From positions 1,178,001 to 1,242,000 of the forward strand of contig NZ_RPFZ01000001.1 in NCBI RefSeq assembly GCF_003815535.1: a DNA stretch of 64,000 nucleotides. Reading direction: 5' to 3'. Position 1 is the stretch's first letter; each line of letters opens with the position of its first letter. Made by a program: the position numbers and the translations under genes. The DNA comes from Aurantiacibacter spongiae. Lineage in GTDB: Bacteria > Pseudomonadota > Alphaproteobacteria > Sphingomonadales > Sphingomonadaceae. Of the stretch, positions 10,098 through 35,849 are shown in pieces. Under the pieces are notes generated by a model. It was given only the letters and a program-made list of their open reading frames with translations, did not search any database and was not told where the DNA came from.

Positions 10098-10208
10098 CGT
10101 GCGTTCCCTTTCGTCCGGCGACCGGGACATGGCCGCCTGCGGGCGATTGTAGGCCCTGCGGGGGCGGCGCCGCCATTGGCCGCCGGACTACTATCCTTTA
10201 TTCTCGGC

Positions 10209-10249: not shown

Positions 10250-10386
10250 CACGCAAATCTAAGGGGATGACCGCCGGCGTGCGCTGCCTATCCCTTTGCC
10301 CCGCCCATCGGCGCGGCCGGGCGTGTACACCTTTGGGCCATGTCGCTGCCCATCAGATCCGTTACCGCCGTGCGAGCGCGGCGCGC

Positions 10387-14841: not shown

Positions 14842-14907
14842 TCTCCCTCTTCCCGGTCCGCTCCGGTTGCCGTTGGTTCCGGGGCGGGCCCGCGAGGCTT
14901 CGCCGTC

Positions 14908-20781: not shown

Positions 20782-20853
20782 CGCGCGATCCGTTGTGAAC
20801 GCGCCGACCGGTGCGGGCAAAGGCGATTCGGATGCGACGTGGAATCTTCCCGA

Positions 20854-20946
20854 CTACCTCTTTCGGGGTAGCGCAACCCTGCCATCGGTACGCCGGCGCG
20901 CGGTCGGTCGTGTGGGGGGCGGCGCCTATCCCTGCGAACCTATCCC
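20854..20946. promoter_or_regulatory. Candidate EPS operators (site D) in a divergent promoter
   Basis: CTACCTCTTTCGGGGTAG at 20854-20871 is a 7-4-7 inverted repeat with one mismatch, the most symmetric of the set. Two CCTATCCC words at 20925-20932 and 20939-20946 lie 14 bp apart. The 20782-21030 gap separates the divergent polymerase and sulfotransferase genes and shows no gene of its own. Confidence 0.5.
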
Positions 20947-21030
20947 AAATCGCCAACGGCATGCCGCTCGCGCTATTGGGGCTGCGGGCGCCGCGGGTTA
21001 GCGTGCGGCCCCGAGATACCGGGAGTCGAC

Positions 21031-22047
21031 ATGGCACGAACAGCTGCGCACGATACGCTGGCGCTGGAACCGGAGCGAGCCGGAGACGTGCCGGGCGCAT
21101 CATCCGGCCGGGGGATGGCGCACGCAATCGCGGCTGCGCCGGTGACGGTCGTCTACATCGCCGGCTACGGGCGCAGCGGAACGACCCTGCTCGACATCTC
21201 GCTGGGAGCGGCCGAGGACGTGGCATCCTGCGGCGAACTCGCCACGCTGGCGCGCCATGTCTGGCATGAAGGCGAATTCTGCGCCTGCGGGGAGACCGTG
21301 CGCGATTGCGCCCAGTGGCGCGACATCGTCGCGGACTGGATGCCCGGCGATAGCGATTCCGGACTGGCCGAACTTGCACGGCTTCAACGGCCCCGCGAAG
21401 CGATGATCTCGCCCGCGCGGTGGAGCGACCGGCACGTGCCCGGCCGCTCGAGCGAACGGTTCGCCCGCGTGACTGGCGACCTCTACCGCCGCATCGCGGC
21501 GCGGACCGGCAAATCGATCGTGATCGATTCTTCCAAACTGCCGGGGCGCGGCCTGGCGCTGGCGGACATGCCCGGCATCGCGCTCTACGTCGTGCACATG
21601 ACGCGCGACGCGCGCGGAGTGGTGTGGTCGCTGCGCAAGCCGCACAAGATCGACAAGGAAGCCGGTGTTCAGCGCGAATTGCGGCCCAAACCGCTGCTCT
21701 ACGCCGCCGCGCGCTGGGCGCTGGTCAACCGCGCCGCCGAAGCTCTTGCGCAAAAGGTCGGCCCGGACCGTTCGATGCGCGTGCGCTACGAGGATTTCGT
21801 CGCCGATCCGCAAGGTACGGTGCGCGCGATCCTGACGATGGTACGCGGACGCCCGTCCCGCGACCCGGTCCTCGATGCGCAGGGCCGCGTCTTCCCGGGG
21901 CATCAGATGGCCGGCAGCCGTCATCGCATGGCTCCGTCCATCCGCTTCCGCGCCGACGAAAGCTGGAAGCGCGACATGCCGGCGCGCGAACGTCGGATCG
22001 TCACCGCCGCCACCCGCCCGATGCTGGCGGCCTACGGATACATCTGA
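21031..22047 (+). CDS. Sulfotransferase family protein
   Basis: 338 residues; the ATG at 21031 follows GGGAG. The PAPS loop is GYGRSGTTLLDISLG, the 3'-phosphate block is VVHMTRDARGVVWSL and the Ser is in SIVIDSSKLPGRG, the pattern of the third bacterial sulfotransferase group in this locus. Its FCACGETVRDCAQWRDI segment contributes three cysteines near residue 90-105, a common feature of this subgroup, possibly a metal or disulfide site. It is the first gene of a plus-strand unit that continues with the lyase (5 bp downstream) and a glycosyltransferase. The probable target is the EPS or its lipid-linked precursor. Confidence 0.87.
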   Translation: MARTAAHDTLALEPERAGDVPGASSGRGMAHAIAAAPVTVVYIAGYGRSGTTLLDISLGAAEDVASCGELATLARHVWHEGEFCACGETVRDCAQWRDIVADWMPGDSDSGLAELARLQRPREAMISPARWSDRHVPGRSSERFARVTGDLYRRIAARTGKSIVIDSSKLPGRGLALADMPGIALYVVHMTRDARGVVWSLRKPHKIDKEAGVQRELRPKPLLYAAARWALVNRAAEALAQKVGPDRSMRVRYEDFVADPQGTVRAILTMVRGRPSRDPVLDAQGRVFPGHQMAGSRHRMAPSIRFRADESWKRDMPARERRIVTAATRPMLAAYGYI

Positions 22048-22052
22048 CATCC

Positions 22053-23459
22053 ATGCCGAGATCCGTATCCTTCTGCGTGTTTGCCGTTGCCGCCGGCCTC
22101 GCCCTCGCGGCGACCAATGCCCCCGGCTCCTGTTCGGGTTCGGGCTCCAACTCCGCCTCGGCCCCGATCGAGCAGCCGGGGCCGAGCCAGCCGGTCGTGC
22201 AAACGAATTCCGCCGCCTTCCCCGGCGCGACGGGCTACGGTGCCGCCAGCCGCGGGGGGCGCGACGGACGGATCATGTGGGTCACCACCACCGCCGACAA
22301 TACCAGCGGATCGTTGCGCGAATGCCTCGAAGCGCGGGGCGCGCGCGTCTGCATCTTCCGGACCGGCGGCATCTTCCGCTTTGTCGGCCGCCCTCCGGTG
22401 ATCCACGATCCCTACCTCACCATCGCCGGCGAAAGCGCTCCCGCCCCCGGGGTGACGCTGGCGCATTCGGGCGGCAGCGAGGCCCGCACCCCGCTCGTCG
22501 TGAAGGGGACGCACGACGTCGTGGTGCGCCACATTCGCGTGCGCAACGACATCGAAGGCGAGCATCGCCAGTCGGAAGACTCGTTCACTATCGAAGACAG
22601 CGACAACGTCATCCTCGATCACGTCAGCGGCAGCTGGGCACGCGACGAACTGGTCAACGGATATGGCGACAACGACCGTATCACCATCAGCAATTCGATC
22701 TTCGCGGAAGGCATTCCCCGGCACGACAAGTGCGCCCTGCTGGCGAGCGACCCCACCGGAGCGCAGCGGCTGAGCTTCATCGGCAATCTGTGCGCGCATA
22801 ACGGCGACCGCAATCCCGACGTCAACTTTCCGCCCATGTCCTGTGTCGAGATCATCAACAACACGTTCTACAACGCCCAGTCCGCCTTTGCGGAGATCTG
22901 GTCCAGCTTCGGTGGATCGCCGGTTTCGCTGGTCGGCAACAGCTTCATCGCCGGCCCGAATACCGGTCACAACGCCATCGGAATAATGCAGCACGAACTC
23001 AACGCGACGGGCGAGGCGCAAATCTACGAATGGGACAACGCCTTCGACGGAAGGTTCGTTCATATCGGTCCGGAAGTGGCGGCCGTGCGCGTGGCCGAAC
23101 CGCCCTGCCCCCTCACCGTCAATCCGCTCTCCCCCGCCGACGCCTATCGACGGGTGCTGGCAAGTTCCGGCGCCCTGCCGCGCGATGCGGTGGACGAACG
23201 GATCGTGACCGAAGTCCGCAACCGTTCCGGCAGCATCGTACAGGCCCCGGGGTCGATCCCCGCGCGCTTCCTCGCCGGAAGCACCGAACCTGCCTATCCC
23301 GACATCGACCGTGACGGCATGGATGACGGGTGGGAGGAGGCGAACGGCATCGATCGCTACGAACCCGACGCGTGGGAGGACGCCGATCGCGACGGGATCG
23401 CCAATCTGGAGGAATTCCTGGCCTATCGCCACACGCAGCTGATGAATGCGGCACGCTGA
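22053..23459 (+). CDS. Secreted pectate-lyase-like polysaccharide lyase (PL1 fold) with dockerin/EF-hand-like tail
   Basis: 468 residues with a signal peptide (SFCVFAVAAGLALAATNA) followed by a low-complexity Ser/Gly/Pro linker. The catalytic part starts FPGATGYGAASRGGRDG and runs through a right-handed beta-helix whose turns are visible as repeated NVILDHVSGSW, RITISNSIFAE, LSFIGNLCAHNG and CVEIINNTFYN. This matches PL1 lyases. The C-terminus has two calcium-loop-like repeats (DIDRDGMDDGWE and DADRDGIANLEEF). Within an EPS locus such a lyase usually trims or releases the polymer, as gellan/sphingan lyases do. The presence of uronic acid in this EPS is therefore plausible but not shown. Confidence 0.82.
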   Translation: MPRSVSFCVFAVAAGLALAATNAPGSCSGSGSNSASAPIEQPGPSQPVVQTNSAAFPGATGYGAASRGGRDGRIMWVTTTADNTSGSLRECLEARGARVCIFRTGGIFRFVGRPPVIHDPYLTIAGESAPAPGVTLAHSGGSEARTPLVVKGTHDVVVRHIRVRNDIEGEHRQSEDSFTIEDSDNVILDHVSGSWARDELVNGYGDNDRITISNSIFAEGIPRHDKCALLASDPTGAQRLSFIGNLCAHNGDRNPDVNFPPMSCVEIINNTFYNAQSAFAEIWSSFGGSPVSLVGNSFIAGPNTGHNAIGIMQHELNATGEAQIYEWDNAFDGRFVHIGPEVAAVRVAEPPCPLTVNPLSPADAYRRVLASSGALPRDAVDERIVTEVRNRSGSIVQAPGSIPARFLAGSTEPAYPDIDRDGMDDGWEEANGIDRYEPDAWEDADRDGIANLEEFLAYRHTQLMNAAR

Positions 23460-24667
23460 TGGCGAGCCGGGCGAGGCTTGCGGGCGAACGCCGCGCCCCT
23501 GCCAGCGATAGCGCCCGGCGGACCGGCGCCGCCGAGGGGGTGCCGGTGGTCTGCTACCCCTTCTCGGGAGCGGCGGTGGGTGGCAGCCACCTGTCGGTCA
23601 AGGGACTGATCGACAATCTCGGTGCCTCCAGCGTATCCCCGCTGATCGTCGTCGAAGCGGGCGACAACCCGATCGCGCGGCTGTTTCCCGGCCGGCGCGT
23701 CGTCGTCGACCCGGCCGCCGCCAGCGGGTTCGCGCCCGGACAGCGCGTGTCGCTGGCAGCCTATCTCGGCACGCTTCGCCATGCCCTGCGCCGCGCCCGG
23801 TTCCTCCGGCGGCACGGCGTCGCCATCGTGCATTGCAACGACGGTCGATCCTGCGCCGACTGGGGGCTGGCGGCCAAGCTGGCGGGGGCCAAGCTGCTGT
23901 GGCACCATCGCAGCGATCCGGGTTCTGTCGGGCTGCGCTTTGTCGCCCCCCTGCTGGCGGACCGCGTGGCGACCGTTTCGCGCTTCGCCCTGCCGCCGCC
24001 GGGCCGGTGGTCGGCGGCCGCGCGGGCACAGGTCGTTCACAGCCCCTTCGATACCTCCATCGCCGTCGATCGCTCGACCATGCGAGCGCGCCTTGCCGAA
24101 GAGATCGGTCTTGACGCAGGCGGCGCGATCCTCGGCTTCTTCGGTGCCTTCGTGGAGCGCAAGCGGCCCGAGATGTTCGTGCGCGCCCTCGCCGATCTGC
24201 GGGAACGAACCGGGCGCGATGTGCGCGGCGTCATGTTCGGAGAGGCGCGTTCTCCCCACATGGCCGAAAGGCTCGCGGCGACGATTGCCGAAACCGGGAT
24301 GGGGCAGGCGGTGCATCGTCCCGGCTATCGTGACGAGGGATGGCGCTGGATCGCCGCCTGCGACGTGCTGCTGGTGCCCGCGGTAGGCGAACCCTTCGGG
24401 CGAACGCTGGTCGAGGCCATGCTCGTGCAGACGCCCGTCGTCGCTGCCCGGTCGGGCGGCAATGTCGAGGCGCTCGAGCCGGATCTCGGGCTGCTGGTCG
24501 CGCCCGACGATCCGGCGGCCCTCGCGGGAGCCTGCGCGCATATACTGGATCGGCCCGGTGTCGCGCTGGAGATGGCTCGCCGGGCGAGGGCGTCCGCGCT
24601 CGAGCGGTTCGGCATCGACCGGCACCGGGAAGCGATCCTGACGATCTACCGCCAGCTTCTGGATTGA
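23459..24667 (+). CDS. GT4-type glycosyltransferase
   Basis: 402 residues beginning at the ATG that shares its A with the lyase stop codon (TGATG at 23457-23461). GT-B fold: an N-terminal acceptor domain with FSGAAVGGSHLSVKGLIDNL and IVHCNDGRSCADWGLAAKL, and a donor domain with LGFFGAFVERKRPEMFV and PAVGEPFGRTLVEAMLVQTP, the G-x-F-x-R-x-x-x-E-A block of GT4 enzymes. It is the last gene of the sulfotransferase-lyase-GT unit and closes the EPS locus before the Crp-type regulator. Donor and linkage are unknown. About 80 bp follow before the next gene. Confidence 0.87.
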   Translation: MASRARLAGERRAPASDSARRTGAAEGVPVVCYPFSGAAVGGSHLSVKGLIDNLGASSVSPLIVVEAGDNPIARLFPGRRVVVDPAAASGFAPGQRVSLAAYLGTLRHALRRARFLRRHGVAIVHCNDGRSCADWGLAAKLAGAKLLWHHRSDPGSVGLRFVAPLLADRVATVSRFALPPPGRWSAAARAQVVHSPFDTSIAVDRSTMRARLAEEIGLDAGGAILGFFGAFVERKRPEMFVRALADLRERTGRDVRGVMFGEARSPHMAERLAATIAETGMGQAVHRPGYRDEGWRWIAACDVLLVPAVGEPFGRTLVEAMLVQTPVVAARSGGNVEALEPDLGLLVAPDDPAALAGACAHILDRPGVALEMARRARASALERFGIDRHREAILTIYRQLLD

Positions 24668-24745
24668 CAGCACGCCCCGGGGCCGTCGCCCGCAACGCGA
24701 TAGGACTTGTGCCGCGAGGCCTTCCATCGTCTAGAACATGCCATC

Positions 24746-25528
24746 ATGACGGACCGGACCTTCGCATCGCCAGACCTTGCCGGTGACAACCGGCGCAGCG
24801 CGCTCGAACGCAAGCTCGGCCATTACATGACGCTGACCTATTCGGAGCGAGACGCTCTGCGCTGGCTCGAGCGGCGCGAACGCCGTTACGCGGCGGGCAG
24901 CGTGGTTCTGCACGAGAACGAGGAAACGGATGCGCTCCATGTCGTCGCGTCGGGCTGGCTTCACGGCTCGACCCGCCTGCCTGACGAGGCGCGGCAGATC
25001 CTGCGCTTCTATTTCGTCGGCGACCTGACGACGACCTTCTCGATCGCCTGGGGGGTCAGCGCGGCCACGCTGACGGCGGTGAGCGATTGCACGCTCTACG
25101 AATTCCCGCGCGATGCGCTGTGGCGTATCTTTTCCGAACATCCCCGGCTCGCGGGCCTGTTCTACGGCGTGGCGGCGTCGGAACAGGTAGCGATGGCCGA
25201 CAGGCTCACCTCCGTTGGCCGGACCGACGCCATTACGCGGATCGGCAAGCTGCTGCTCGACATCCGTTCGCAATTGCGGGTTGTCGACGGGGAGAGCGGA
25301 TCGACCTTCGAACTGCCGCTCACGCTGCAGGATTTGGGCGATGCCGTCGGCCTGACCAAGACGCATGTCAGCCGAACGCTGAAGAAGCTGGAGGATCAGC
25401 GGCTTCTCGAGCGGGACGGGCGGATCATCCGTATCGTCGACGTGGCGGAACTGGCCAGCCGTGTCGGGTTCGAGGATCGCTACGGCCATATCGCCACCGA
25501 CTGGCTGCCGGACGCCGCCCCGCGATAG
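24746..25528 (+). CDS. Crp/Fnr-family transcriptional regulator
   Basis: 260 residues from the ATG at 24746. Residues 25-140 form the cyclic-nucleotide-binding-like jelly roll (AAGSVVLHENEETDALHVVASGW). Residues 193-217 form the winged helix-turn-helix (LTLQDLGDAVGLTKTHVSRTL). There is no N-terminal cysteine cluster, so it is not an oxygen-sensing FNR. The RE..SAR-type phosphate-binding cassette of cAMP-dependent CRP is also absent, so the ligand is unknown. The gene stands 168 bp in front of the nine-gene inositol/YcaO operon, on the same strand, and a repeat with a palindromic core lies between them. It is therefore the probable regulator of that operon. Confidence 0.85.
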   Translation: MTDRTFASPDLAGDNRRSALERKLGHYMTLTYSERDALRWLERRERRYAAGSVVLHENEETDALHVVASGWLHGSTRLPDEARQILRFYFVGDLTTTFSIAWGVSAATLTAVSDCTLYEFPRDALWRIFSEHPRLAGLFYGVAASEQVAMADRLTSVGRTDAITRIGKLLLDIRSQLRVVDGESGSTFELPLTLQDLGDAVGLTKTHVSRTLKKLEDQRLLERDGRIIRIVDVAELASRVGFEDRYGHIATDWLPDAAPR

Positions 25529-25539
25529 GCGCCTTACGG

Positions 25540-25582
25540 TGACATAGGTCATCGCACCGGACCGTGCCGGACACATAGGTCA
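25540..25582. promoter_or_regulatory. Candidate Crp-type operator pair before the inositol/YcaO operon
   Basis: ACATAGGTCA occurs twice, at 25542-25551 and 25573-25582, 31 bp apart (about three helical turns). The first copy completes the palindrome TGACATAGGTCA (25540-25551), a TGAC-N4-GTCA layout reminiscent of Crp/Fnr-family sites. Together with its position after the regulator gene and about 115-155 bp before the first operon gene, this suggests an operator. The remainder of 25529-25695 shows nothing else. Confidence 0.5.
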
Positions 25583-25695
25583 CCCCCGCCACCGGTTTTC
25601 TTCGGTTTTCGCCTCGCCGGGTGCAGCCCTCACGCGCCCGGCGCGTATCCCAGCCAGCGGTGCCAGACGGTGCCGCAATGCGAGGGAGAGGCACA

Positions 25696-26874
25696 ATGGC
25701 GGAGAAGGTTGGCGTGGCGATCGTGGGTCTGGGCGGCGCTGTCGCGACCACCGCGGTCGCGGGCATCGAGATGATCAAGGCCGGATCGAACGGTCTTTCG
25801 GGTCTGCCCCTGGCGGACCGCGACATCGCCGACATGGCGGCCTATCGCGATCTCGAATTCGGCGGATGGGATCTGGCCGATGCCGATCTCGGCACCTGCG
25901 CGACACGGCACGGCGTGCTTACCGAAGCCGATCTTCAGAATGGCGCGTCTGCCCTGCGCGACATGCGGGCATGGCCAGCCGTTGGCAGCAAGGCGCACTG
26001 CGCCAATATCGACGGCAACAACCGGATGGCGGACGGGCACCGCGCCGCGATCGGCCAGATCCAGTCCGATCTCGACCGGTTCCGGGAAGATCGCGGGCTG
26101 GACCGGATGGTGGTCGTCAACCTCGCCTCGACCGAGAAAACCCCCGACGCGAACGAATCCAGCCTGGCTTCGCTCGATGCGTTCGAGGAAGGTCTGGACG
26201 GCGACGATACGGCGATCAGCCCGGCCATGCTCTATGCCTACGCCGCGATCGACGCCGGCGTGCCCTACGCCAATTTCACGCCGTCCGTTGCTGCCGACCT
26301 GGCCCCGCTGGCGGAGATGGCGCGGACGCGCGGCGTGCCGGTGGCAGGCAAGGACGGCAAGACCGGCCAGACCTTCCTCAAGACGGTGATCGCACCCGCG
26401 CTCAGGGAACGCTCGCTGCATGTCGACGGATGGTTCTCGACCAACATCCTGGGCAATTCGGACGGGCTGGCGCTGGACGATCCCAAGTCGCTCGCGTCGA
26501 AGCTCGGCACCAAGGGCAGCGTGCTGGACGATATCCTCGGCTACAAGGTCGAGGATCACATCATCATGATCCACTATTACCGCCCGCGCGGGGACGACAA
26601 GGAGGCGTGGGACAATATCGACATGACCGGGTTCCTCGGTCAGAAGATGCAGCTCAAGCTGAACTTCCTGTGCAAGGATTCCATCCTCGCCGCTCCGCTG
26701 GCGATAGAGATCGCGCGGTGTCTCGATCTCGCCGCGCAGCGCGGTGACGGCGGCGTGCGAGAGGAACTGAGCCTGTTCTTCAAGCTGCCGCAGACGGCCG
26801 ACGGCGGAGCCCCCGTTCACGGCTTCGCGCAGCAACAGGCGATGCTCGACGAATGGCTCGGCGAACCGGCCTGA
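25696..26874 (+). CDS. Inositol-3-phosphate synthase family protein
   Basis: 392 residues; the ATG at 25696 follows GAGGGAGAGG. The NAD motif VGLGGAVATT is at 10-19 and ANFTPS at 192-197. The substrate-binding region shows GKDGKTGQT at 218-226, NILGNSDG at 250-257 and CKDSILAAP at 326-334. These correspond to the conserved blocks of myo-inositol-1-phosphate synthases, which convert glucose 6-phosphate to inositol phosphate through an NAD-dependent aldol cyclisation. It is shorter than the eukaryotic enzyme (over 500) and close to archaeal/actinobacterial forms. As first gene of the operon it supplies a cyclitol phosphate, the presumed scaffold for the other enzymes. Confidence 0.9.
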   Translation: MAEKVGVAIVGLGGAVATTAVAGIEMIKAGSNGLSGLPLADRDIADMAAYRDLEFGGWDLADADLGTCATRHGVLTEADLQNGASALRDMRAWPAVGSKAHCANIDGNNRMADGHRAAIGQIQSDLDRFREDRGLDRMVVVNLASTEKTPDANESSLASLDAFEEGLDGDDTAISPAMLYAYAAIDAGVPYANFTPSVAADLAPLAEMARTRGVPVAGKDGKTGQTFLKTVIAPALRERSLHVDGWFSTNILGNSDGLALDDPKSLASKLGTKGSVLDDILGYKVEDHIIMIHYYRPRGDDKEAWDNIDMTGFLGQKMQLKLNFLCKDSILAAPLAIEIARCLDLAAQRGDGGVREELSLFFKLPQTADGGAPVHGFAQQQAMLDEWLGEPA

Positions 26875-27767
26875 TGACGCTGTCGCCAGCCCTGCTGCCG
26901 CTGCTGCGCGAACTCGGCGATCTGAAGCGGATACGGTCCGCGGGGCGAGACGGAACGGTCGCGACACGCCTGTTCGAAATGGCGTGGAGCGCGTGGCTGG
27001 CCGGGGAAGACCGCGACACGGTGGCGATGCGAGCGATGGCGCAGGCGCTGGCGGCTTGCCGTCTGGGCGATCTCGACCACGCCAAGCTTGGCGAACTGGG
27101 CATGTCCGGGGATGATCGCCGCACGGCCCTCGAACGCGCCGTGGACGAGATTGCCGCACCCTTGCCCGACGATCATGCCGCCGCGCTCAAGACGTATCTC
27201 GATGCGCCGCTGTCGCCCCCCGGGCCGCTCCCCGATGCCATCGCCGCGCTGCGTCACCAGCCGCGCGCGGGGGTGACGGGGCCGGGCCGACCGCGCATCA
27301 TGCTGCAACCCGAGGAAAACCACGCGGAGCACAGCTTCCTCGTCGCGCTCTATGCCAGTCTGCTGGCGCCGTTTTACGGTGCGCCCCCCGCCCGATCCTT
27401 CTGGCACGGCATGGTCCACCACCTCCATTCCGCCGCCATGCCGGACGCGGGCTATACCGGGGAAGTGCTGCTGGGCGACCGTCTCGGCAGCGTGATCGAC
27501 CGTGCGCGCGAGCTGGCGCTGGCACAGCTTCCCGACAAGCCGGCGGCCGTGTCGCGCGAGCATCTGCTGGAGATTGCCGACGACACCACCCCCGCCGCCC
27601 GCGCCTTTCATGCCGGCGATGTCATCGACCGGGTCGTGGAGATCGAGCAGCATCTGAAGCGCGGTGCCGTCACGATGGACGTGGTGCTCGGTGATTACGG
27701 CCTCGTGCACGATGGCCCGGTAAAGCCATTCCACGACCGGGTGCTGGCCGAGACAGGGCTGCCGTGA
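26874..27767 (+). CDS. HD-fold protein with altered metal site
   Basis: 297 residues; the ATG shares its A with the stop of the synthase gene (TGATG), so translation is coupled. The C-terminal half looks like an HD-domain phosphohydrolase of the YfbR type. It has NHAEHSFLVALYASLLAPF (His153 as first ligand), then MVHHLHSA, where the defining His-Asp is His182-His183, and GDVIDRVVEIEQH with Asp249. The N-terminal 140 residues are helical and unfamiliar. HD folds include phosphatases and the diiron oxygenase MIOX, so dephosphorylation or oxidation of the cyclitol are both conceivable. The Asp-to-His change argues against a standard HD phosphatase. The function is not established. Confidence 0.65.
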   Translation: MTLSPALLPLLRELGDLKRIRSAGRDGTVATRLFEMAWSAWLAGEDRDTVAMRAMAQALAACRLGDLDHAKLGELGMSGDDRRTALERAVDEIAAPLPDDHAAALKTYLDAPLSPPGPLPDAIAALRHQPRAGVTGPGRPRIMLQPEENHAEHSFLVALYASLLAPFYGAPPARSFWHGMVHHLHSAAMPDAGYTGEVLLGDRLGSVIDRARELALAQLPDKPAAVSREHLLEIADDTTPAARAFHAGDVIDRVVEIEQHLKRGAVTMDVVLGDYGLVHDGPVKPFHDRVLAETGLP

Positions 27768-28864
27768 TCTGGCATTCGCCCGTTACCGGCCGCCCGCTCG
27801 CCGCCGACACGCCCCATTCGTTGAGCGATGGGCGAGGCGAGCGCTGGCCGCTGGTGGAGGGCATCCCCTATCTGCGCTCCGGGAGCGAGGCGCTGGTCGA
27901 ACTGGCGCTCGGCCTGCTCGATTCGGGCGATATGGACGCCGCCCTCGTCGCCTTGCTGAGCGACCAGGATGAATGGTGGAGCGGGACCGGCACCGATCCG
28001 GGGGAGCTGCGCGAACTGGTCGCGCGCCGCGACGAACTGACCTTGCGCGAAGCGATGCGCCTGCTGCGCTTCGGGCCCGTCGCCGACTATTTCGCGCATC
28101 GCTGGTCCGATCCGACCTTTCTCGCCGGTCTCGCCCTGCTCGAGGCGCATCGCGGCGGGGCGCGAACCGCCTTCGAACTGGCCGGTGGGATCGGCCACTA
28201 CTCTCGCGATCTGGCGCGGCACGCCGTTCGCTGCGTCAGCGGCGACGTGGTTTTCGCGAAGTGCTGGCTGGCGAAGAACTGGATCGCGCCCGAAGCGCAA
28301 TACGTCGTGTTCGACGCGCAGGATCGCTGGCCGATCGGCGATGCGCGCTTCGATCTCGTGCATTGCCAGGATGCGTTCTACTTCCTTCCCGAACAAGGCC
28401 GCGTGGCGCAGCGCATGCGCGAGGCTCTTGCCGATGGCGGCACCCTCCTCGTCGGGCATCTGCACAATGCCGATTATGCCGCCGGGGCGATGGGACCGGC
28501 ACGAACGGCAGGGGAATGGCGCGCCATCTTCCCCGAAGCCCTCGTTTACGACGAGCGCGAGTTGCGGGCCGCCCTGCTCGCCGCCCGGGCGCCGGACCCC
28601 GTAGCCTTGCGCGAGGACGAGAGCGTGGAAGCGTGGTCGCTGGCCGAGCGGGCAACCGCCCCTGGCGCCGTCGAAGCGGGCCTCGCCCTGCCCCCGCCAT
28701 CCGCCCGCCTGCGGCCCAATCCGCTGATCGGGAGCGACGGGCCGCAATGGCCTTCGCAGCGATACGCAAGCGAATACGGCCCCGCAGCGACCTGGACCGA
28801 TCCCGCCGCGACGAGCGATCCCGAACGCGATCGCCGGCTGGTCGACCTGCCGGAAAGGTGGTGA
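27764..28864 (+). CDS. Class I SAM-dependent methyltransferase-like protein
   Basis: 366 residues; the GTG at 27764 overlaps the previous stop (GTGA). The N-terminus (MIWHSPVTGRPLAADT...WPLVEGIPYLR) resembles a Trm112-like zinc-ribbon segment often fused to methyltransferases, but without the cysteines. The central part has a Rossmann pattern: FELAGGIGHYSRDLA as the SAM-binding glycine loop, then FDAQDRWPIGDARFDLVHCQD and a LADGGTLLVGHLHN strand. The last 100 residues are unfamiliar and end in DLPERW. The acceptor is presumably an intermediate of the operon's product. Methyl transfer is inferred from fold only. Confidence 0.75.
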   Translation: MIWHSPVTGRPLAADTPHSLSDGRGERWPLVEGIPYLRSGSEALVELALGLLDSGDMDAALVALLSDQDEWWSGTGTDPGELRELVARRDELTLREAMRLLRFGPVADYFAHRWSDPTFLAGLALLEAHRGGARTAFELAGGIGHYSRDLARHAVRCVSGDVVFAKCWLAKNWIAPEAQYVVFDAQDRWPIGDARFDLVHCQDAFYFLPEQGRVAQRMREALADGGTLLVGHLHNADYAAGAMGPARTAGEWRAIFPEALVYDERELRAALLAARAPDPVALREDESVEAWSLAERATAPGAVEAGLALPPPSARLRPNPLIGSDGPQWPSQRYASEYGPAATWTDPAATSDPERDRRLVDLPERW

Positions 28865-28866
28865 CG

Positions 28867-29859
28867 ATGCGGTGGGGAATCGCCGGTTACGGATGGGTGG
28901 CGCGCGACTACATGGCGCCGGCCATTGCCGCCGCCGGCGGGACCGTCGCGGCGGTCTGCGATCCCTCCCGCGAAGCGCGTGCCCTGGCGGAGGAACGCGG
29001 CGCGCAAGGGTTCGCACGGCTCGAGGACATGCTGGATGGCTGTGCGCTCGACGCGCTTTACGTCGCGACGCCCAACCACCTGCATGCCGGGACGATAGAG
29101 ACGGCGGCGGCGGCGGGCCTGCCCATCTTGTGCGAGAAGCCGCTGGCCGAGGACATCGCCGGCGTGGAGCGTATCGCGGCGGTCGCCGATTCCGGTAGCA
29201 CGGCGATCGCCACCGCTTTCGACCAGCGCCATCATCCCGCGCACGAGGCTGTTCGCCAACGTATCCGCGCCGGCGATCTCGGAACCGTCACCGCGATCCG
29301 CATCGTCTATTGCTGCTGGGTCGATCCCGAATGGTCGCGGGGCACGGGCGAAAACTGGCGCGCGCAGCCCCGGTGCGCGGGCGGCGGAGCGGTGCTCGAT
29401 CTCGCGCCGCACGGGCTGGACCTCGCGGAATACCTGCTCGGGGAACCGGTGGGCGATCTTTCCGTGACCCTCCAGCGCCGGATCCACGATTACCCGGTCG
29501 AGGACGGGGGCATGGTGATCGGGCGCACCGCATCGCACGTGCTGTTTTCCAGCCACGTCTCCTACAACTGGCCCGAGGAACTGCCGCGCCGCCGGCTGGA
29601 GATCGCCGGGACCGGAGGGCTGATCGTCGCTACCGACACGATGGGCCAGGACGCGGGCGGGCACGTGTCGCTGATAGACGCGGCGGGCGGGGGCCGGCAG
29701 GTGATCGCCTTCGACAGCGCGACCACCCCCTTCGTGCGGCAGGCGCTGGCTTTCGCACATTGGTGCGAACGGCCGTCAGGCACATTCTCGATCGCGCGCG
29801 ACATCGCCGCCGCGCGCCGCTTTTTCGCGGCCTACCGAAAGGCGCAACCATGCCCCTGA
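28867..29859 (+). CDS. Gfo/Idh/MocA-family NAD(P)-dependent oxidoreductase
   Basis: 330 residues; the ATG at 28867 (a GTG at 28861 is an alternative) stands 2 bp after the methyltransferase stop. The N-terminal Rossmann motif is IAGYGWVARDYM and the catalytic EKP is at 90-92 (LCEKPLAED). The C-terminal sheet domain carries GGGAVLDLAPHGLDLAEYL with the family's catalytic-side His. Enzymes of this family oxidise or reduce sugars and cyclitols (inositol dehydrogenase IolG is a member). Next to an inositol-phosphate synthase and a TIM-barrel isomerase, oxidation of the cyclitol ring to an inosose is the most natural guess, though a nucleotide sugar is possible. Confidence 0.87.
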   Translation: MRWGIAGYGWVARDYMAPAIAAAGGTVAAVCDPSREARALAEERGAQGFARLEDMLDGCALDALYVATPNHLHAGTIETAAAAGLPILCEKPLAEDIAGVERIAAVADSGSTAIATAFDQRHHPAHEAVRQRIRAGDLGTVTAIRIVYCCWVDPEWSRGTGENWRAQPRCAGGGAVLDLAPHGLDLAEYLLGEPVGDLSVTLQRRIHDYPVEDGGMVIGRTASHVLFSSHVSYNWPEELPRRRLEIAGTGGLIVATDTMGQDAGGHVSLIDAAGGGRQVIAFDSATTPFVRQALAFAHWCERPSGTFSIARDIAAARRFFAAYRKAQPCP

Positions 29860-30665
29860 ACCATTTCGCCTGCGCCAATTGCGGCTTCTGGCAATTGCAT
29901 TTCGATCCGCCGGAGTGCCCCGTCTGCACCGACGTTCGCAACGATCTGCCGGAGGATGGCTGGCGTTTCCTGCCCGAACGCGAAGTCGCCGCCAGTCACG
30001 ACGGGTCGGCACGGGAGGTAGCGGAAGGGTTGTGGGCCTTCACCACGACGCCCGCCCTCGGGCTGGGCGGAACCGGCTGGCTGCTGGTGCGCGAAGGCGG
30101 CAACGTCGCCTTCGAGGCCGCCCCCTATTACTCGCCGCCCATGCTGGACACGCTCGCGCGGCTCGGCGGCATTGCCGCACTGGCGGCCAGTCATCCCCAC
30201 GGCTACGGCGCGTTGTTCCAGTTGCAGCGCGAATTCGATCCCCCTGTCGTCGCGATCCACAAGGACGATCTGGCCTACACCAAGGCGTTTCGCGTGACCG
30301 CTCCCTACGATGAGACCCTGGAGCTGGCGTCCGGCTGCACGCTCTACCGGGTCGGCGGGCATTACGCGGGACAGGCGGCGCTGCACGATGCCGGCGGCGG
30401 GCGCCTGTTCTGCGGCGACATGTTCAAGGTCGATCAGGACGAGGCGGGGCGGTCCACCCATGTCTCCAGCCACAAGGCGTTTCACAGAAACATTCCGCTG
30501 ACCCACGGCGAGTTGCGGCACTATCGCGATGTCATCGCGCCACTCTCGTTCGAGGCGCTGCTCACCCCCTTCGAATACGCGCCCGAGATCGGACGCGAAA
30601 CCGCGCTCGCGGTGCTGGACGAGGCGCTGGCCCGTCCGCCCCAGGTCAGGAGATACGCCCTGTGA
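29850..30665 (+). CDS. Zinc-ribbon plus metallo-beta-lactamase-fold protein
   Basis: 271 residues; the ATG at 29850 overlaps the oxidoreductase gene by 10 bp. Residues 8-26 carry a zinc ribbon or rubredoxin-like knuckle pair (C-ANC at 8/11 and CPVC at 23/26). The rest looks like a metallo-beta-lactamase fold. ASHPHGYG at 113-120 sits where HxHxDH is expected, GGHYAGQ at 169-175 supplies a further His, and CGDMFK with Asp190 the bridging acid. The first motif keeps two His but lacks the DH, so the metal site is degenerate or of another type. A hydrolase, or a redox partner using the ribbon, are both possible. The role is inferred only from the operon. Confidence 0.7.
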   Translation: MPLNHFACANCGFWQLHFDPPECPVCTDVRNDLPEDGWRFLPEREVAASHDGSAREVAEGLWAFTTTPALGLGGTGWLLVREGGNVAFEAAPYYSPPMLDTLARLGGIAALAASHPHGYGALFQLQREFDPPVVAIHKDDLAYTKAFRVTAPYDETLELASGCTLYRVGGHYAGQAALHDAGGGRLFCGDMFKVDQDEAGRSTHVSSHKAFHRNIPLTHGELRHYRDVIAPLSFEALLTPFEYAPEIGRETALAVLDEALARPPQVRRYAL

Positions 30666-32173
30666 GAACCGGCAGCGCCCATAAGGACCTTCCCGCCGGC
30701 CTGCCCGACGCGGCGCGACTCTATCTCGATGCCTTCCCGGCGGGCGAGATCGTCGCCTTCCCCATCGACCCCGTCGACCGGCTGGGCATCCCTGTATGGA
30801 TCGTCGCGCTGTTTCCCGACGACCAGACACCGCTCGGCGGCGTCATGCCCTACGGCGTGGGCTACGGCGCCGACGAAGGGCAGGCGATCCTGGGCGCGAT
30901 GGGCGAGATTGCGGAAATGGCCTTCCCGGCCCTTTCGCTGTCACGGCGCAGCAAGGTGCGCGCCAGCTATGCCGACCTGATCGCCAGCGAAGGCGAGCAC
31001 GCGGCAGCAGACCCGTTGACGCTGTGCCTGCCGGCCGGTTCTCCGGTCGCGCGCGACACGGTGCTGGAATGGGTCGAGGCGGTGCGCCACGCGGACGGTT
31101 CCCGCGTGCTCGTGCCGATAGACCTCGCCGCCTACAATTCCGCCGAGCTGTCGCCCGGATACGCGCCTTTCACGACGATCATCTCGAACGGCATGGGCGC
31201 GGGACCGGATATCGACTGGGCGGTCGGCCACGGACTTTGCGAGATCCTGCAACGAGACGGCAACGGCCTGCTGTTCCGCGCGCTCGACCGGGGCGTGGCG
31301 CTGGGCCTGCCACACGATCCGCCGGCCGGCATCGCGGCCCTGCTGGCGCGCTACGAACAGGCCGGCATCCGCCCGATACCCAAATTCGCGACCGACGAGT
31401 TCGGCATCGCCAACATCTATTGCGTGGGCGAGGATACGCACGTCGATCCCGCCGAACCGATCATGGTGTCGAGCTGCGGCGAAGCGGCGCATCCCGATGC
31501 CCTCGCCGCGCTGGAGAAGGCGCTGACCGAATATGCCGCCAGCCGATCGCGCAAGGCCTACGCGCATGGCGACGAGGCGCGGACCCGCGCTCTCAGTCCG
31601 TCGGGCTATGTCGAGCGTTTCCTCGCGCAGAGCGGCGGCGCGGCGAAAAGCAGTGACCGGCGCGCGCTCGATGCCATGATCGACTGGCAAGCGCGCGCAG
31701 CCGGCGAGATCCGCGAGTGGCTCGCGCCGAACATGCTCGCCGAGACGACCCGCAAGCCGTTCGCCGACCTGCCGCACACGCCCTGCCCCGGCCCGCGCGA
31801 CAGGGGCCGCATTGCGCTCGAACGCGTGATCGCGGCGGGGTTCGACCCCCTCTATGTCGACATGGCGCCCGAAGGTTGCCCGGTCAGCACGGTCAAGCTG
31901 ATCGTGCCGGGCATGGAGGTCGAGACGATGAGCTATTACCGCATAGGCGAGCGCGGCGTGGCCAAGCTGATGGCGATGGACAGCGAGCTTGTCGGCTTCG
32001 TCCCCGGCCCGGGAAAGGAACCGGTGCGCCTCACGCCCGAGGCGGTCGAACGGCTGGGCGGGCAACCCTATTTCGATACCGCGCTGGCGGAACGGATCGT
32101 CGGCCCGCTCTACCCGCTCTATCGCGAACCGGAGGCGCACCACGCCGCCGCCGCGCGAAACGCAGCGACATGA
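30662..32173 (+). CDS. YcaO-domain protein
   Basis: 503 residues; the GTG at 30662 overlaps the previous stop (GTGA). The YcaO ATP/Mg fold is recognisable in GYGADEGQAILGAMGEIAEM (67-86), ISNGMGAGPDIDWAVGHG (174-191), CEILQRD (193-199) with the metal-binding Glu, and GEAAHPDALAALEKALTEYA. YcaO enzymes phosphorylate a backbone amide oxygen and introduce azolines, thioamides or amidines. The C-terminus ends EAHHAAAARNAAT and lacks the PxPxP tail of azoline-forming YcaO proteins. There is no TfuA, no RRE or E1-like partner and no visible precursor peptide gene, so a non-ribosomal substrate within this pathway is likely. The reaction is unknown. Confidence 0.85.
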   Translation: MRTGSAHKDLPAGLPDAARLYLDAFPAGEIVAFPIDPVDRLGIPVWIVALFPDDQTPLGGVMPYGVGYGADEGQAILGAMGEIAEMAFPALSLSRRSKVRASYADLIASEGEHAAADPLTLCLPAGSPVARDTVLEWVEAVRHADGSRVLVPIDLAAYNSAELSPGYAPFTTIISNGMGAGPDIDWAVGHGLCEILQRDGNGLLFRALDRGVALGLPHDPPAGIAALLARYEQAGIRPIPKFATDEFGIANIYCVGEDTHVDPAEPIMVSSCGEAAHPDALAALEKALTEYAASRSRKAYAHGDEARTRALSPSGYVERFLAQSGGAAKSSDRRALDAMIDWQARAAGEIREWLAPNMLAETTRKPFADLPHTPCPGPRDRGRIALERVIAAGFDPLYVDMAPEGCPVSTVKLIVPGMEVETMSYYRIGERGVAKLMAMDSELVGFVPGPGKEPVRLTPEAVERLGGQPYFDTALAERIVGPLYPLYREPEAHHAAAARNAAT

Positions 32174-33003
32174 CACTGCGCTACGCCTACAACACCAATG
32201 GTGCGGCCAATCACCGGCTGGACGACGCGCTGCGCCTGATCGCCGACAGCGGCTATGCCGGGGCCGCGATCACGCTCGACCATCATCACTGCGACCCGCT
32301 GGCCCCCGGCTGGCGTGCCGAAGCGGAGCGCGTTGCCCGCCTGCTAAGCGAACTCGGGCTCGGTGCCGTCGTCGAGACAGGAGCCCGCTTCCTGCTCGAT
32401 CCGCGGTCCAAGCACGAACCGACGCTGATCTCGCCCGAACCCGAAGGGCGCGAGAGGCGCATCGGTTTTCTGACCCGCGCGCTCGACATCGCGGCGATCT
32501 GGCGGGCCGATGCGGTCAGCTTCTGGGCCGGCGTTCCTCGTCCCGGAACCGGGCGGGAGGATGCGATGGAATGGCTGCACGAGGGCCTGGCGCGCGTGCT
32601 CGACCACGCCGAGGCGATCGGGGTCGATGCCGCGTTCGAACCGGAACCGGGAATGCTGATCGAAACGTGCGGAGAATGGGCAGACCTGCGCGCCCGCCAC
32701 CCGCGCCTCAAGCTGGCGCTCGACACCGGACATTGCCTCGTGAGCGGCGACATCGACCCCGCCGACGCCGTACGCCGGCACGCCGACCATCTCGGCACCG
32801 TTGCCATCGAGGACATGGCGACGGGCGTTCACGTCCATCTGCCTTTCGGGGAGGGCGACATGGACATCCCCGCCGTGCTCGCGGCGCTGTCGGACATCGG
32901 TTTCGAGCGCCTCGTTTCGGTAGAACTTTCGCGCGAAAGCCCGCGCGCGCACGAGGCTATTCCCGAAAGCATCGCCTATCTGAAGGACCACGAGCCGGCA
33001 TGA
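32170..33003 (+). CDS. AP-endonuclease-2-type TIM-barrel sugar isomerase/epimerase
   Basis: 277 residues; ATGA overlap with the YcaO gene. TIM-barrel protein of the xylose-isomerase-like superfamily. The strands begin YAYNTNGAANHRLDDALRLI, and metal ligands are seen as FEPEPG (Glu), LALDTGHC (Asp, His) and VSVELSRES (Glu), with a VAIEDMATGVHVHLPFGEGD loop that carries further His and Asp. IolE, IolI, hydroxypyruvate isomerase and tagatose epimerases belong here. In an operon with inositol-phosphate synthase and a Gfo/Idh/MocA enzyme, isomerisation or dehydration of an inosose is a reasonable expectation, but the substrate is not shown by the sequence. Confidence 0.83.
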   Translation: MTLRYAYNTNGAANHRLDDALRLIADSGYAGAAITLDHHHCDPLAPGWRAEAERVARLLSELGLGAVVETGARFLLDPRSKHEPTLISPEPEGRERRIGFLTRALDIAAIWRADAVSFWAGVPRPGTGREDAMEWLHEGLARVLDHAEAIGVDAAFEPEPGMLIETCGEWADLRARHPRLKLALDTGHCLVSGDIDPADAVRRHADHLGTVAIEDMATGVHVHLPFGEGDMDIPAVLAALSDIGFERLVSVELSRESPRAHEAIPESIAYLKDHEPA

Positions 33004-34223
33004 GAACCTGCTTTGTCAGCCGCCGCTTCTTTCCCGCCATCAGCGGCATGTCCATCTACGCCATCAACCTGCTGCGCCAGCTGGTCGCACGCGGTCACGA
33101 CGTCACCATGATAAGCCAGTATCGCGGAGACGACTTCGGCAAGGGCGTGTACGGGGGCGGCCCGCCGCCCGGTGTCGCGGGCGTGAAGGTCATCGGACTC
33201 GAGCAGCTTGGAGAGCAGCTGGCGAACGATACCGCCGCCGACTTCGAACGCGACATCGACACCATCGTGGCGACGATAGAACGCGAGCACGCCGCCGCCC
33301 CCTTCGATCTGCTTCACGCCCAATACGGCTACCCGACCGGCTGGGCGGCGCTGCTTGCCGGACAGCGGCTCGGCCTGCCGGTCGTGGTGTCGATCCAGGG
33401 CGGCGACGGCCACTGGGTCGGTTCGTGTTGCGAGACGCACCGGGCGGCGATGGTCCGCGTTCTGGATCATGCGGATGCCGTGCTGATCGGCGGAGAGAGC
33501 TTCGCCCGCGAAGTGCATGACCGGCTCGGCACGCCAATGGATCGCTTCACCCTCATTCCCGGCGCGGTCGATACGAAGCGCTTTACGCCCGGCACGCTGG
33601 GCGACGGGAACACCGTTCGCATCCTCTACCACGGCCGCGTCGACCGCCGGAAGGGCGTCCTCGACTTCATCGCCGCCTGCGACCGTCTGACGGGGGATTG
33701 GCGCGCGACCATTTCGGGGATCGGACCCGATCTCGACGCGGCGAAGGCGCTGACCGCGAAAAGAGATCTGGGCGAGCGTATCGTCTTCACCGGTTATGCC
33801 GATTACGCCGACGTGCCGCAGATCTACCGCGAGCACCACATCTTCGCTTCGCCCACCTATGCGGAAGGGTTTTCCAACACCATCCTCGAAGCGATGGCGA
33901 GCGGACTGGCGATCGTCTCGTGCCACGCGGTCGGCGTTTCCGATTGCCTGCGCGACGCGGAAAACGGCTTGCTGATCGAACCGGGCGACGTGGAAGCGCA
34001 GGCGGCCTGCCTGCAACGCCTGATCGACGACGAGGGCGAGCGCCACCGGCTTGCCGACGCCGCGCTTACCGAATGCCGCGCGGTCTACAGCTGGGACGTG
34101 GTCGGCGGCATGATTGCCGGGATCTACGGGCAGCTTCGCGGCAGCGGCGGGCCGACATCGTTCGATCCCGTGCTGCCGGCAGACCCGGACTGCCGTTTCC
34201 GCGCGGAGCCGCATCTGCTGTGA
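33000..34223 (+). CDS. GT4-type glycosyltransferase of the inositol/YcaO operon
   Basis: 407 residues; ATGA overlap with the isomerase gene. The N-terminus FVSRRFFPAISGMSIYAINL carries the G-M acceptor pattern of GT4 enzymes. The donor domain has ILYHGRVDRRKGVLDFI and SPTYAEGFSNTILEAMASGL (E-G-F...E). The fold class is that of MshA, which joins GlcNAc to inositol phosphate in mycothiol synthesis. The adjacent deacetylase and the inositol-phosphate synthase make a glycosyl-inositol product attractive, but overall likeness to MshA cannot be measured here and the gene could equally serve a different acceptor. Confidence 0.85.
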   Translation: MRTCFVSRRFFPAISGMSIYAINLLRQLVARGHDVTMISQYRGDDFGKGVYGGGPPPGVAGVKVIGLEQLGEQLANDTAADFERDIDTIVATIEREHAAAPFDLLHAQYGYPTGWAALLAGQRLGLPVVVSIQGGDGHWVGSCCETHRAAMVRVLDHADAVLIGGESFAREVHDRLGTPMDRFTLIPGAVDTKRFTPGTLGDGNTVRILYHGRVDRRKGVLDFIAACDRLTGDWRATISGIGPDLDAAKALTAKRDLGERIVFTGYADYADVPQIYREHHIFASPTYAEGFSNTILEAMASGLAIVSCHAVGVSDCLRDAENGLLIEPGDVEAQAACLQRLIDDEGERHRLADAALTECRAVYSWDVVGGMIAGIYGQLRGSGGPTSFDPVLPADPDCRFRAEPHLL

Positions 34224-34936
34224 GCCGGGTGCTGGCGATCTCCCCGCATCTCGACGACGCGGTCTTTTCCGCCGGCGGCACCCTGGCGGCCCATGCGGAT
34301 GCGGGCGACGTCGTCACTGTCGTCACCTGCTTCACCGGCAGCGTCGCAAATCCCGCGGGCTTCGCGCTCGCCTGCCAGCTCGACAAGGGACTGGACAAGG
34401 ATGCTGACTACATGGCGCTGCGCCGGGCGGAGGATGTGGTGGCATGTGCGGCGATCGGCGCCCGCTGCGTCCATCTGCCGCTGCTCGAGGCGCCGCATCG
34501 CGGTTACGAGAACGCCGCCGCGCTGTTCGGTGCGCTAAAGGCCAGCGACGATGCGATCGAAACCGTCGCCGAGGCGCTCCGCCCGGTCATCGCGCGTCGC
34601 AGGCCGGATATCATCTACGGTCCCTGCGGTGTCGGCGGTCACGTGGATCACCTGGCGGTGCGCGAAGCCCTGGCACGAATTGCCCCCGGCGCGGTGCTGT
34701 GGGAGGACTTTCCCTATGCGATGCGAGAGGCGGCAGCACCGCGAGGGATCGAGCGTGCCTGTCTTTCGGACGAGATCCTGGAACGCAAGACTGCGGCCGT
34801 CCTCGCCTACCGCAGCCAGATCGGCTTCCAGTTCGGCTCGTCGGAAGACGCGCGCCGGACGCTCGCCCGGTGGCGTTACGAAGGATTTGCCAAGCCGGCG
34901 GTCACGGCATCTTTCCCATCCAGCCATGCATGGTGA
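34220..34936 (+). CDS. PIG-L family deacetylase of the inositol/YcaO operon
   Basis: 238 residues; the GTG at 34220 overlaps the glycosyltransferase stop (GTGA). The zinc motif is ISPHLDDAVFSAGG (residues 7-20, with His-Leu-Asp-Asp in place of the more common His-Pro-Asp-Asp) and the third ligand lies in GVGGHVDHLAV. The PIG-L family includes MshB, which deacetylates GlcNAc-inositol. Here it ends the nine-gene operon, and its last 35 bp overlap the convergent esterase gene. Expected role: removal of an acetyl group from an amino-sugar moiety of the pathway product. It is not closely alike to the EPS-locus deacetylase at 13038. Confidence 0.85.
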   Translation: MSRVLAISPHLDDAVFSAGGTLAAHADAGDVVTVVTCFTGSVANPAGFALACQLDKGLDKDADYMALRRAEDVVACAAIGARCVHLPLLEAPHRGYENAAALFGALKASDDAIETVAEALRPVIARRRPDIIYGPCGVGGHVDHLAVREALARIAPGAVLWEDFPYAMREAAAPRGIERACLSDEILERKTAAVLAYRSQIGFQFGSSEDARRTLARWRYEGFAKPAVTASFPSSHAW

Positions 34937-35849
34937 GCCGGCTGGCAAAGGCGTCGAACCACCCGGTGCTCGTGGTGTCCTTGGGATACATGCCGAAGCC
35001 GTGCCCGCCCTGTTCGTACAGATGGAATTCCACCGGCCTTCCCGCCGTGCGCCACGCCTCGATCAGTCCGAAGCCGCTATCGGCGAACAATCCGTCATCC
35101 GCCGCCAGGGCGACGAAAAGCGGGGGCGCGTCGTCCGGCACCGGAACGGACGCGAGCGGCCCGTAGATCGTGGCGATGAAGGCGGGGTCGGCCGCGTCCC
35201 CCCGCAACTCCGTCGCCAGGGTCAGCATGGCGCCAGCTGAAAATCCGATCATGCCGATCCGGTCCGGATCGACGTGCCATTGCGCCGCGCGGTGGCGCAC
35301 CAGGTCGAAAGCCGCTTCGGCATCGGCGATCTGCGGAGCCAGCGCGCGGACTTCCTCGGCGGAGCCGCGTGGCGGCCGTTGGCCCCCTTCCGTGAACATC
35401 CGCTCCATGGATTCGGCGAACTCGTCGAGCGCGGCTGGCGTCTGGTTCAGACGATATTTCAGGACGAAGGCGGCGACGCCCCGGTCGGCAAGCGCCTGCG
35501 CGACGTCCCAACCCTCGTTTTCCATGGACAAGGTGCGAAAACCCCCGCCGGGAGCGACGATGACGGCGGTTCCATTCGCCCGTGCCGGATCGGGAAGGAA
35601 CGGGGTCAGCGTCGCCTGCGTAACGTTACGCGCAAACATGCTGCCATACTGGCTGTGCCAGCTTTCCTCCGTCGTGGCGCCCGGCAGGCGCCCCGTATCG
35701 AGGTCGACCGCGGCGGGCTGCGTTGGTGCATCGATCTCTACCATGCGATCATCCTGCGCCAGCGCCGGCGTCGCCAGCGCCACGAAGGCGAACGTCACCG
35801 CTGCCAGGACAGAGTTTGCCGAGGTTCTGCTACTGGTCGGAAAGATCAT
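34902..35849 (-). CDS. Secreted alpha/beta-hydrolase, acetyl-xylan-esterase-like
   Basis: 315 residues with a signal peptide (SVLAAVTFAFVALATPALAQ). Alpha/beta-hydrolase fold: oxyanion block VIVAPGGGFRTLS, nucleophile in MIGFSAGAML, acid near ALAADDGLFA, and catalytic His in QGGHGFGMYP. This is the type of esterase often encoded beside xylan-degrading glycosidases. The start overlaps the stop of the GH43 gene (ATGA), so both formed one operon driven from the xyl-box promoter at 36888. The 3' end overlaps the convergent deacetylase gene by 35 bp. Substrate is probably an acetylated xylan oligosaccharide; this is inferred from the neighbour and the operator. Confidence 0.83.
   Translation of the reverse strand: MIFPTSSRTSANSVLAAVTFAFVALATPALAQDDRMVEIDAPTQPAAVDLDTGRLPGATTEESWHSQYGSMFARNVTQATLTPFLPDPARANGTAVIVAPGGGFRTLSMENEGWDVAQALADRGVAAFVLKYRLNQTPAALDEFAESMERMFTEGGQRPPRGSAEEVRALAPQIADAEAAFDLVRHRAAQWHVDPDRIGMIGFSAGAMLTLATELRGDAADPAFIATIYGPLASVPVPDDAPPLFVALAADDGLFADSGFGLIEAWRTAGRPVEFHLYEQGGHGFGMYPKDTTSTGWFDAFASRLTMHGWMGKMP

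Follow-up and report, generated by a model that had tools for sequence, protein, structure and literature searches.

We analyzed a stretch of 64,000 nucleotides of Aurantiacibacter spongiae (contig NZ_RPFZ01000001.1, positions 1,178,001 to 1,242,000; hereafter the window), in which nine plus-strand genes running from 25696 to 34936 form an operon with a YcaO gene in sixth place. The YcaO gene overlaps each of its neighbors by 4 bp (30662-30665 and 32170-32173), so the overlapping junctions seen in a preliminary description of this DNA hold, as does its assignment of the neighbors to carbohydrate enzymes, a cyclitol and amino-sugar context that is kept across phyla. Judged from sequence, the window protein belongs to a discrete YcaO clade that probably acts on a small carbohydrate metabolite of the cyclitol-amino-sugar type and not on a peptide. 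The operon consists of the following genes.

25696..26874, + strand: INO1, myo-inositol-phosphate synthase family (PF07994, PF01658; ATG start picked by eye)
26874..27767, + strand: HD-fold protein, phosphohydrolase-like, with the His-Asp pair replaced by His-His (PF13023, barely above cut-off)
27764..28864, + strand: S-adenosylmethionine (SAM) methyltransferase (PF08241)
28861..29859, + strand: Gfo/Idh/MocA oxidoreductase (PF01408, PF22725)
29856..30665, + strand: protein with a rubredoxin-like Cys4 motif and a metallo-beta-lactamase (MBL)-like domain (weak hits and homologs)
30662..32173, + strand: YcaO, GTG start, 503 residues (PF02624, AlphaFold model, fold match)
32170..33003, + strand: TIM-barrel protein, sugar isomerase/epimerase family AP_endonuc_2 (PF01261)
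33000..34223, + strand: GT4 glycosyltransferase (PF00534, PF13439, PF13579)
34220..34936, + strand: PIG-L de-N-acetylase family protein (PF02585)

The sixth protein scores 165.4 bits against the Pfam profile PF02624 (E=2.7e-48, cut-off 25.7), and its AlphaFold model, with a predicted local distance difference test score (pLDDT) of 88.6, has as its top fold match the M. jannaschii YcaO 6peu (Z 32.7, root-mean-square deviation 3.0, 365 residues). By profile and by fold it is therefore a member of the YcaO superfamily, as had been thought clear from the outset, and it is the sole YcaO match in the 2.86-Mb genome. The YcaO that thioamidates McrA in methanogens (MJ1094; 6peu, 6pe3) is both the closest solved fold and the best sequence match in the PDB (E=2.7e-14). 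However, the window protein scores 82.5 bits against the NCBIfam model for McrA thioamidation, below the cut-off of 365, shares about 22% identity with the MJ1094 type, has a C-terminal extension past residue 441 outside the McrA-type match, and is set in a bacterial cyclitol operon. The azoline-forming cyclodehydratases (SagD type, TruD, McbD) also have this fold, and a SagD model gives a weak match. In contrast to these enzymes, the window family lacks the PxPxP tail, has no precursor found nearby, and has no E1-like, ocin-ThiF-like, or flavin mononucleotide (FMN) dehydrogenase partner among the nine operon genes in a Pfam comparison that did not extend to the rest of the genome.

The preliminary description had seen no precursor peptide gene, no TfuA and no PxPxP tail, and had proposed a substrate other than a ribosomally synthesized and post-translationally modified peptide (RiPP). 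A conserved short gene beside homologs, which had been named beforehand as the finding that would speak against this, did not appear: 1683 open reading frames (ORFs) of 18-130 residues, lying at most 1.5 kb from the block in 54 loci, yielded no cluster present in more than one clade. Clustering of the flanking ORFs across clades returned only the Crp-type regulator described below and overlapping frames, along with ORFs dispersed over 2 to 13 loci at no fixed distance from the block. The absence of a precursor applies to the vicinity of the block, distant peptide genes having been left out of the search. TfuA likewise gave no match at E<1e-3 in 63 sources, which comprise the window and 62 family loci but not the remainder of the genome, and the same search matched 7/7 control loci, three of which are seeds.

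The claim about the C-terminus holds in part. PxPxP is indeed lacking from the last 15 residues of all 40 family translations, five of which are re-fetches or near-copies, but the tail is not merely short of a motif, since another one is conserved near the same place. The pattern [LH]Yx[LM]YRE, mostly as LYPLYREP, occurs in every one of these 40 translations and in none of 28 other YcaOs.

32108..32131, + strand: C-terminal motif LYPLYREP, residues 483-490 (family alignment)

On the YcaO model, the alignments with TruD, McbD, and the 4v1t-4v1v heterocyclase extend to residues 487-489, so that the motif probably lies where their tails end. Known YcaOs are met most often in RiPP biosynthesis (PMC13063428), and the window protein might likewise be a RiPP enzyme, acting on a precursor peptide from a distant gene of the same genome. 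We consider this the most improbable of the explanations discussed here, given a carbohydrate operon kept across phyla, no common short ORF near the block, and a tail without PxPxP. The negative peptide-gene search and the conserved carbohydrate context instead lend support, at the level of sequence, to the proposed non-RiPP substrate.

The window protein and its homologs form a separate clade. In a tree of 60 YcaOs, 35 family rows, labeled as such by a profile score above 400 bits, lie on one side of a single branch (support 100/99, length 1.88). Six family translations (the partial L096, L100, and the re-fetches L137-L140) and four others (L104, one of L141, two of L147) are not included in this tree. 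The sister group of the clade is unsure because the family's long branch joins the one leading to the E. coli type. Consistent with a discrete family, full-length members score at least 499 bits with profile A1, whereas the best other YcaO scores 128. Glu75, Glu78, Glu199, Arg203, and Glu290, numbered as in E. coli YcaO, are kept in 35/35 family rows. E. coli YcaO is a standalone enzyme with no TfuA and no small ORF nearby that thioamidates the ribosomal protein uL16 (PMC13063428); it has in common with the window family the standalone state, the absence of TfuA, and these five residues, but it branches outside the clade, differs at two active-site positions discussed below, and has another gene context.

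The operon is widely but sparsely distributed. One scan of genome contigs with the window YcaO gave 43 loci: 36 from Sphingomonadales (one of them titled only as uncultured bacterium), six from Streptomyces, and one from a Verrucomicrobia metagenome-assembled genome (MAG). Nine genes matched in identical order in 40 of the 43; two of the exceptions (L011 and L019) are cut off within the block by a contig end, and the MAG locus, L036, deviates. The 4-bp overlap of the MBL and YcaO genes is also seen in 40/43, the others being L036 with a single ORF, L033 with matches in pieces, and L035 with a 53-bp gap. Profile searches placed 10 of 398 Pseudomonadota over the threshold (the window's own genome, five strong matches in one other alphaproteobacterial genus, and four weak ones), 13 of 396 Actinomycetota (the known Streptomyces, nine further strong, and three weak), and two of 337 Verrucomicrobiota (the known MAG and one weak). 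All nine genes are present in five of the nine further Actinobacteria (L086, L087, L089, L090, L093); L088 is on a short contig, and in L091, L092, and L094 the YcaO is found in a different setting. Plasmid records of Methylobacterium aquaticum, M. bullatum, Roseomonas haemaphysalidis, and Hymenobacter volaticus also carry the family, and the Roseomonas plasmid has the full annotated nine-gene operon in the same order. On that plasmid (L098, 16278-19949), the operon is followed by a glucosyltransferase annotated as mdoH and then by an opposite-strand pair annotated as spore photoproduct lyase family.

Within the order of the window, 7/296 genomes exceed the threshold for YcaO, and no homolog was found at E<=0.001 in 36 other genomes of the genus. 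This patchiness and the plasmid locations fit horizontal transfer of the operon. INO1 was found in 1/61 genomes, the window's own, and not in any of 60 relatives, a pattern that, with its single positive genome, is consistent with inositol synthesis having arrived together with the operon. The same distribution bears on whether the YcaO has a housekeeping protein as its substrate, comparable to uL16 for E. coli YcaO, an idea in keeping with the latter's likewise standalone gene without a small ORF or TfuA nearby (PMC13063428). Patchy presence in the order and genus, fixed biosynthetic neighbors, and a separate clade make such a target very unlikely.

Among the other operon proteins, family membership suggests the type of reaction more readily than the exact one. 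The Gfo/Idh/MocA protein scores 98 bits against an inositol 2-dehydrogenase model with a cut-off of 355, and the TIM-barrel protein has distant matches to IolO and IolE below cut-off. SPHLDD and HVDH motifs are present in the PIG-L translation, and we presume that they carry their usual meaning for a PIG-L protein. The modeled HD protein (pLDDT 91.2) resembles the phosphohydrolases HDDC2 (Z 13.3) and YfbR (Z 11.8), with a best Foldseek E of 5.4e-3 and thus no match at E<=0.001, and a Z near 13 may arise by chance for helical proteins. Since its His-Asp pair is His-His, phosphatase activity is a guess. Several His and Asp are invariant among its homologs, and for this reason a diiron oxygenase similar to MIOX was considered; this was not adopted, the best folds being HDDC2 and YfbR, while PhnZ and TmpB rank low among the Foldseek matches.

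The window copy of the rubredoxin-MBL protein has no Pfam match at 0.001. Weak MBL, rubredoxin-like, and ODP-type matches were obtained, the Roseomonas copy exceeds the Lactamase_B cut-off, and the Cys4 motif is invariant in 13 rows. Against the PDB, a single-sequence search gave no match and a profile search gave weak MBL matches. In the alphaproteobacterial genus whose operon is free of the MBL gene, a homolog is encoded outside the operon in 5/5 genomes (L158-L162); its neighbors vary among the five, and no second linked cluster was seen around it. Gene calls around these unlinked copies and around L091 follow a rough GC-position rule, with some genes miscalled onto the wrong strand.

Building on the fold, clade, operon, and residue conservation observed, we lean toward a view in which a YcaO clade with a Gln-bearing site and a LYPLYREP-type tail left peptides and acts on a cyclitol-amino-sugar metabolite, perhaps a photoprotectant, made by a horizontally moving nine-gene operon of Pseudomonadota, Actinomycetota, and Bacteroidota, altered in Verrucomicrobiota. 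We infer the reaction types from the protein families and on that footing propose a substrate, order of steps, use of ATP, nucleophile, and product. INO1 would supply an inositol phosphate, whose ring could be dephosphorylated, oxidized, isomerized, and methylated by the HD, Gfo/Idh, TIM-barrel, and methyltransferase proteins. The GT4 enzyme would then add a sugar and the PIG-L protein free an amine, much like the early steps of mycothiol synthesis, giving a pseudodisaccharide. Characterized YcaOs bring about nucleophilic attack on the carbonyl of an amide, whose oxygen is phosphorylated with ATP and leaves (PMC13063428). By analogy, the YcaO, coupled to the rubredoxin-MBL protein, may spend ATP on activating a carbonyl of the pseudodisaccharide, either an amide or a keto/enol group behaving as a vinylogous acid or amide, for attack by the freed amine or a hydroxyl. 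Points in favor of this reading are the common gene order, the near-constant 4-bp overlap of MBL and YcaO and their single ORF in L036, the carbocycle-forming gene family in the place of INO1 in L036, the presence of INO1 in just the operon-bearing genome among 61, the lack of a cross-clade short ORF and of TfuA, the sugar-related surroundings of the YcaO in L094, the well-supported clade, and the five kept ATP-site residues.

The operon resembles the mycothiol and bacillithiol systems (MshA/MshB, BshA/BshB) in bringing together inositol phosphate synthase, GT4, and PIG-L families. However, the window proteins score far below the cut-offs of the mycothiol models for INO1 (43.6 against 638), MshA (63.8 against 462.5), and MshB (28.5 against 224.35), and of the bacillithiol BshA model (75.1 against 273.7). 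Pfam reveals no cysteine ligase (MshC or BshC) among the nine genes, the genome beyond them not having been searched.

Several observations weigh against a cyclitol-amino-sugar substrate activated with ATP. There is no obvious amide-bearing intermediate, and no known amide ligase is found among the operon genes. Moreover, two positions of the active site are changed. The position of E. coli Glu202 is Gln in 35/35 family rows and Glu in 24/24 other YcaOs, and that of Arg286 is Lys in 35/35 family rows, compared with Arg in 14/24 and Lys in 4/24 of the others.

31250..31252, + strand: codon of Gln197, at the position of E. coli YcaO Glu202 (alignment, 35/35 family rows)

Glu202 of E. coli YcaO presumably binds metal, and we take the roles of the other ATP/Mg-site residues to be the generally assumed ones. 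On this basis, the metal site of the clade is predicted to differ from the canonical one, with Gln for Glu, and the two changes together put ordinary ATP/Mg chemistry in doubt. An E202A variant of E. coli YcaO was used in PMC13063428. A catalytically altered YcaO, which would not activate amides with ATP and would serve as an ATP-independent enzyme or as a scaffold or sensor for the MBL protein, could account for the uniform Gln, the near-constant 4-bp overlap, and the joining of MBL and YcaO in a single ORF in L036. Yet the five other ATP-site residues kept throughout the family suggest that nucleotide is still bound, and the Methylobacterium operon does without an MBL gene, so we regard this alternative as unlikely.

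The make-up of some loci also counts against the proposed pathway. The MBL gene is absent from the operon in Methylobacterium (L097, L100) and in the alphaproteobacterial genus L078-L082, and a methyltransferase match is absent in L036, L088, and Hymenobacter L099. The co-occurrence of INO1 is based on one positive genome. In two genomes of the same bacterial family as the window, YcaO is split into two pieces in G1413 and interrupted by one TGA in G1401, and operon matches are in pieces in L033 and L041. The Gfo/Idh gene of L099 (12102-13150) consists of two overlapping frames. These split genes reflect decay or sequencing errors. Three Actinobacteria genomes (G1041, G1164, G1073) hold a YcaO of the clade with no HD homolog found, though one was found in both operon-bearing genomes searched for comparison, and no other operon gene lies around their YcaOs within the stretches examined. 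The surroundings in G1041 (L094, 1443-13688) nonetheless speak for a carbohydrate substrate: a sugar ABC importer and a polysaccharide-deacetylase-family gene (Polysacc_deac_1) flank the YcaO, with GH5, GH1, GH2, and an aldo/keto reductase nearby; the surroundings of L091 look similar by eye. PIG-L and Polysacc_deac_1 are different Pfam families, and thus the YcaO is accompanied by a sugar deacetylase inside and outside the operon alike.

The Verrucomicrobia locus L036 departs furthest from the common order. MBL and YcaO are fused in its single ORF (9044-11416), a second YcaO of the clade lies at 13500-15005, and there is no INO1, methyltransferase, or TIM-barrel match in the 15 kb covered. 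A gene of the 3-dehydroquinate (DHQ) synthase family (5599-6945) takes the place of INO1 directly before HD. Its product scores 545.7 bits against a cut-off of 333 with the curated 3-dehydroquinate synthase model, and its matches include the solved 'Cyclase' 4p53 and 2-deoxy-scyllo-inosose synthase, from a family that also holds cyclitol-making cyclases. A carbocycle-forming family in this place suits the pathway outlined above, but since it passes the 3-dehydroquinate synthase model, this stand-in could be an ordinary AroB, which counts against that pathway.

A special case of that pathway is an ultraviolet-absorbing photoprotectant built on a methoxy-cyclohexenone, to which the YcaO would couple an amine as ATP-grasp enzymes do in mycosporines. 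The mycosporine-like pathway joins a sugar phosphate cyclase to an ATP-grasp ligase; Pfam finds no ATP-grasp among the nine genes, and a DHQ-synthase-family gene was seen solely in L036. That gene in the place of INO1, the two YcaOs of L036, and a dehydrogenase, IolE-like TIM barrel, and methyltransferase that could build such a ring would suit a photoprotectant, and so would the two spore photoproduct lyase family annotations after the Roseomonas operon and the leaf or air origin of some carriers. UVA-absorbing compounds of Methylobacterium are reported (PMC9664959), and methylobamine is a lead only. Three carriers (L036, L088, L099) are, however, without a methyltransferase match, the niche link consists of a few isolate names without statistics, the Roseomonas strain is a tick isolate, and the one lyase scanned falls below curated cut-offs; such a product is quite unlikely on present evidence.

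Outside the operon, three further features were annotated.

24707..25528, + strand: Crp/Fnr-type regulator, start codon uncertain (PF13545, PF00027)
25540..25551, no strand: palindrome TGACATAGGTCA, candidate operator in the Crp-INO1 gap (motif comparison)
34902..35849, - strand: alpha/beta hydrolase ORF downstream, overlapping the end of PIG-L

Of the 36 Sphingomonadales loci, 23 have a Crp/Fnr homolog ahead of INO1. The gap before the first operon gene that had been described does exist; counted up to the ATG at 25696 as the start codon, it measures 167 bp (25529-25695) instead of 168. Among 24 Crp-INO1 gaps (the window and 23 Sphingomonadales), 11 contain TGACATA or its complement; over 1000 shuffles this number averaged 0.29 and never exceeded 3, a comparison that flatters the motif because TGACATA was chosen after the gaps had been viewed. 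The longer form TGAC-N4-GTCA, present in just 4/24 gaps, was rejected as the operator in favor of this core. Further upstream (19444-24667), the window holds genes of the polysaccharide type, namely a Wzy_C O-antigen-ligase family gene on the minus strand, Sulfotransfer_3, and a GT4 glycosyltransferase.

The introduction of PMC13063428 lists YcaO reactions that all take place on peptides or proteins, and PMC8442711 (2021) states that evidence is lacking for YcaO functions outside RiPPs in Actinobacteria. Searches of the open-licence literature, a scope that leaves out most subscription journals, gave no title or abstract opening that appears to describe such a YcaO cluster. If the proposed role is correct, a YcaO clade devoted to small molecules would extend the range of reactions in this much-used family, and bacteria such as Sphingomonas and Methylobacterium would make an undescribed metabolite. 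Importantly, genome mining that uses YcaO as a marker of RiPPs could then misfile such clusters.

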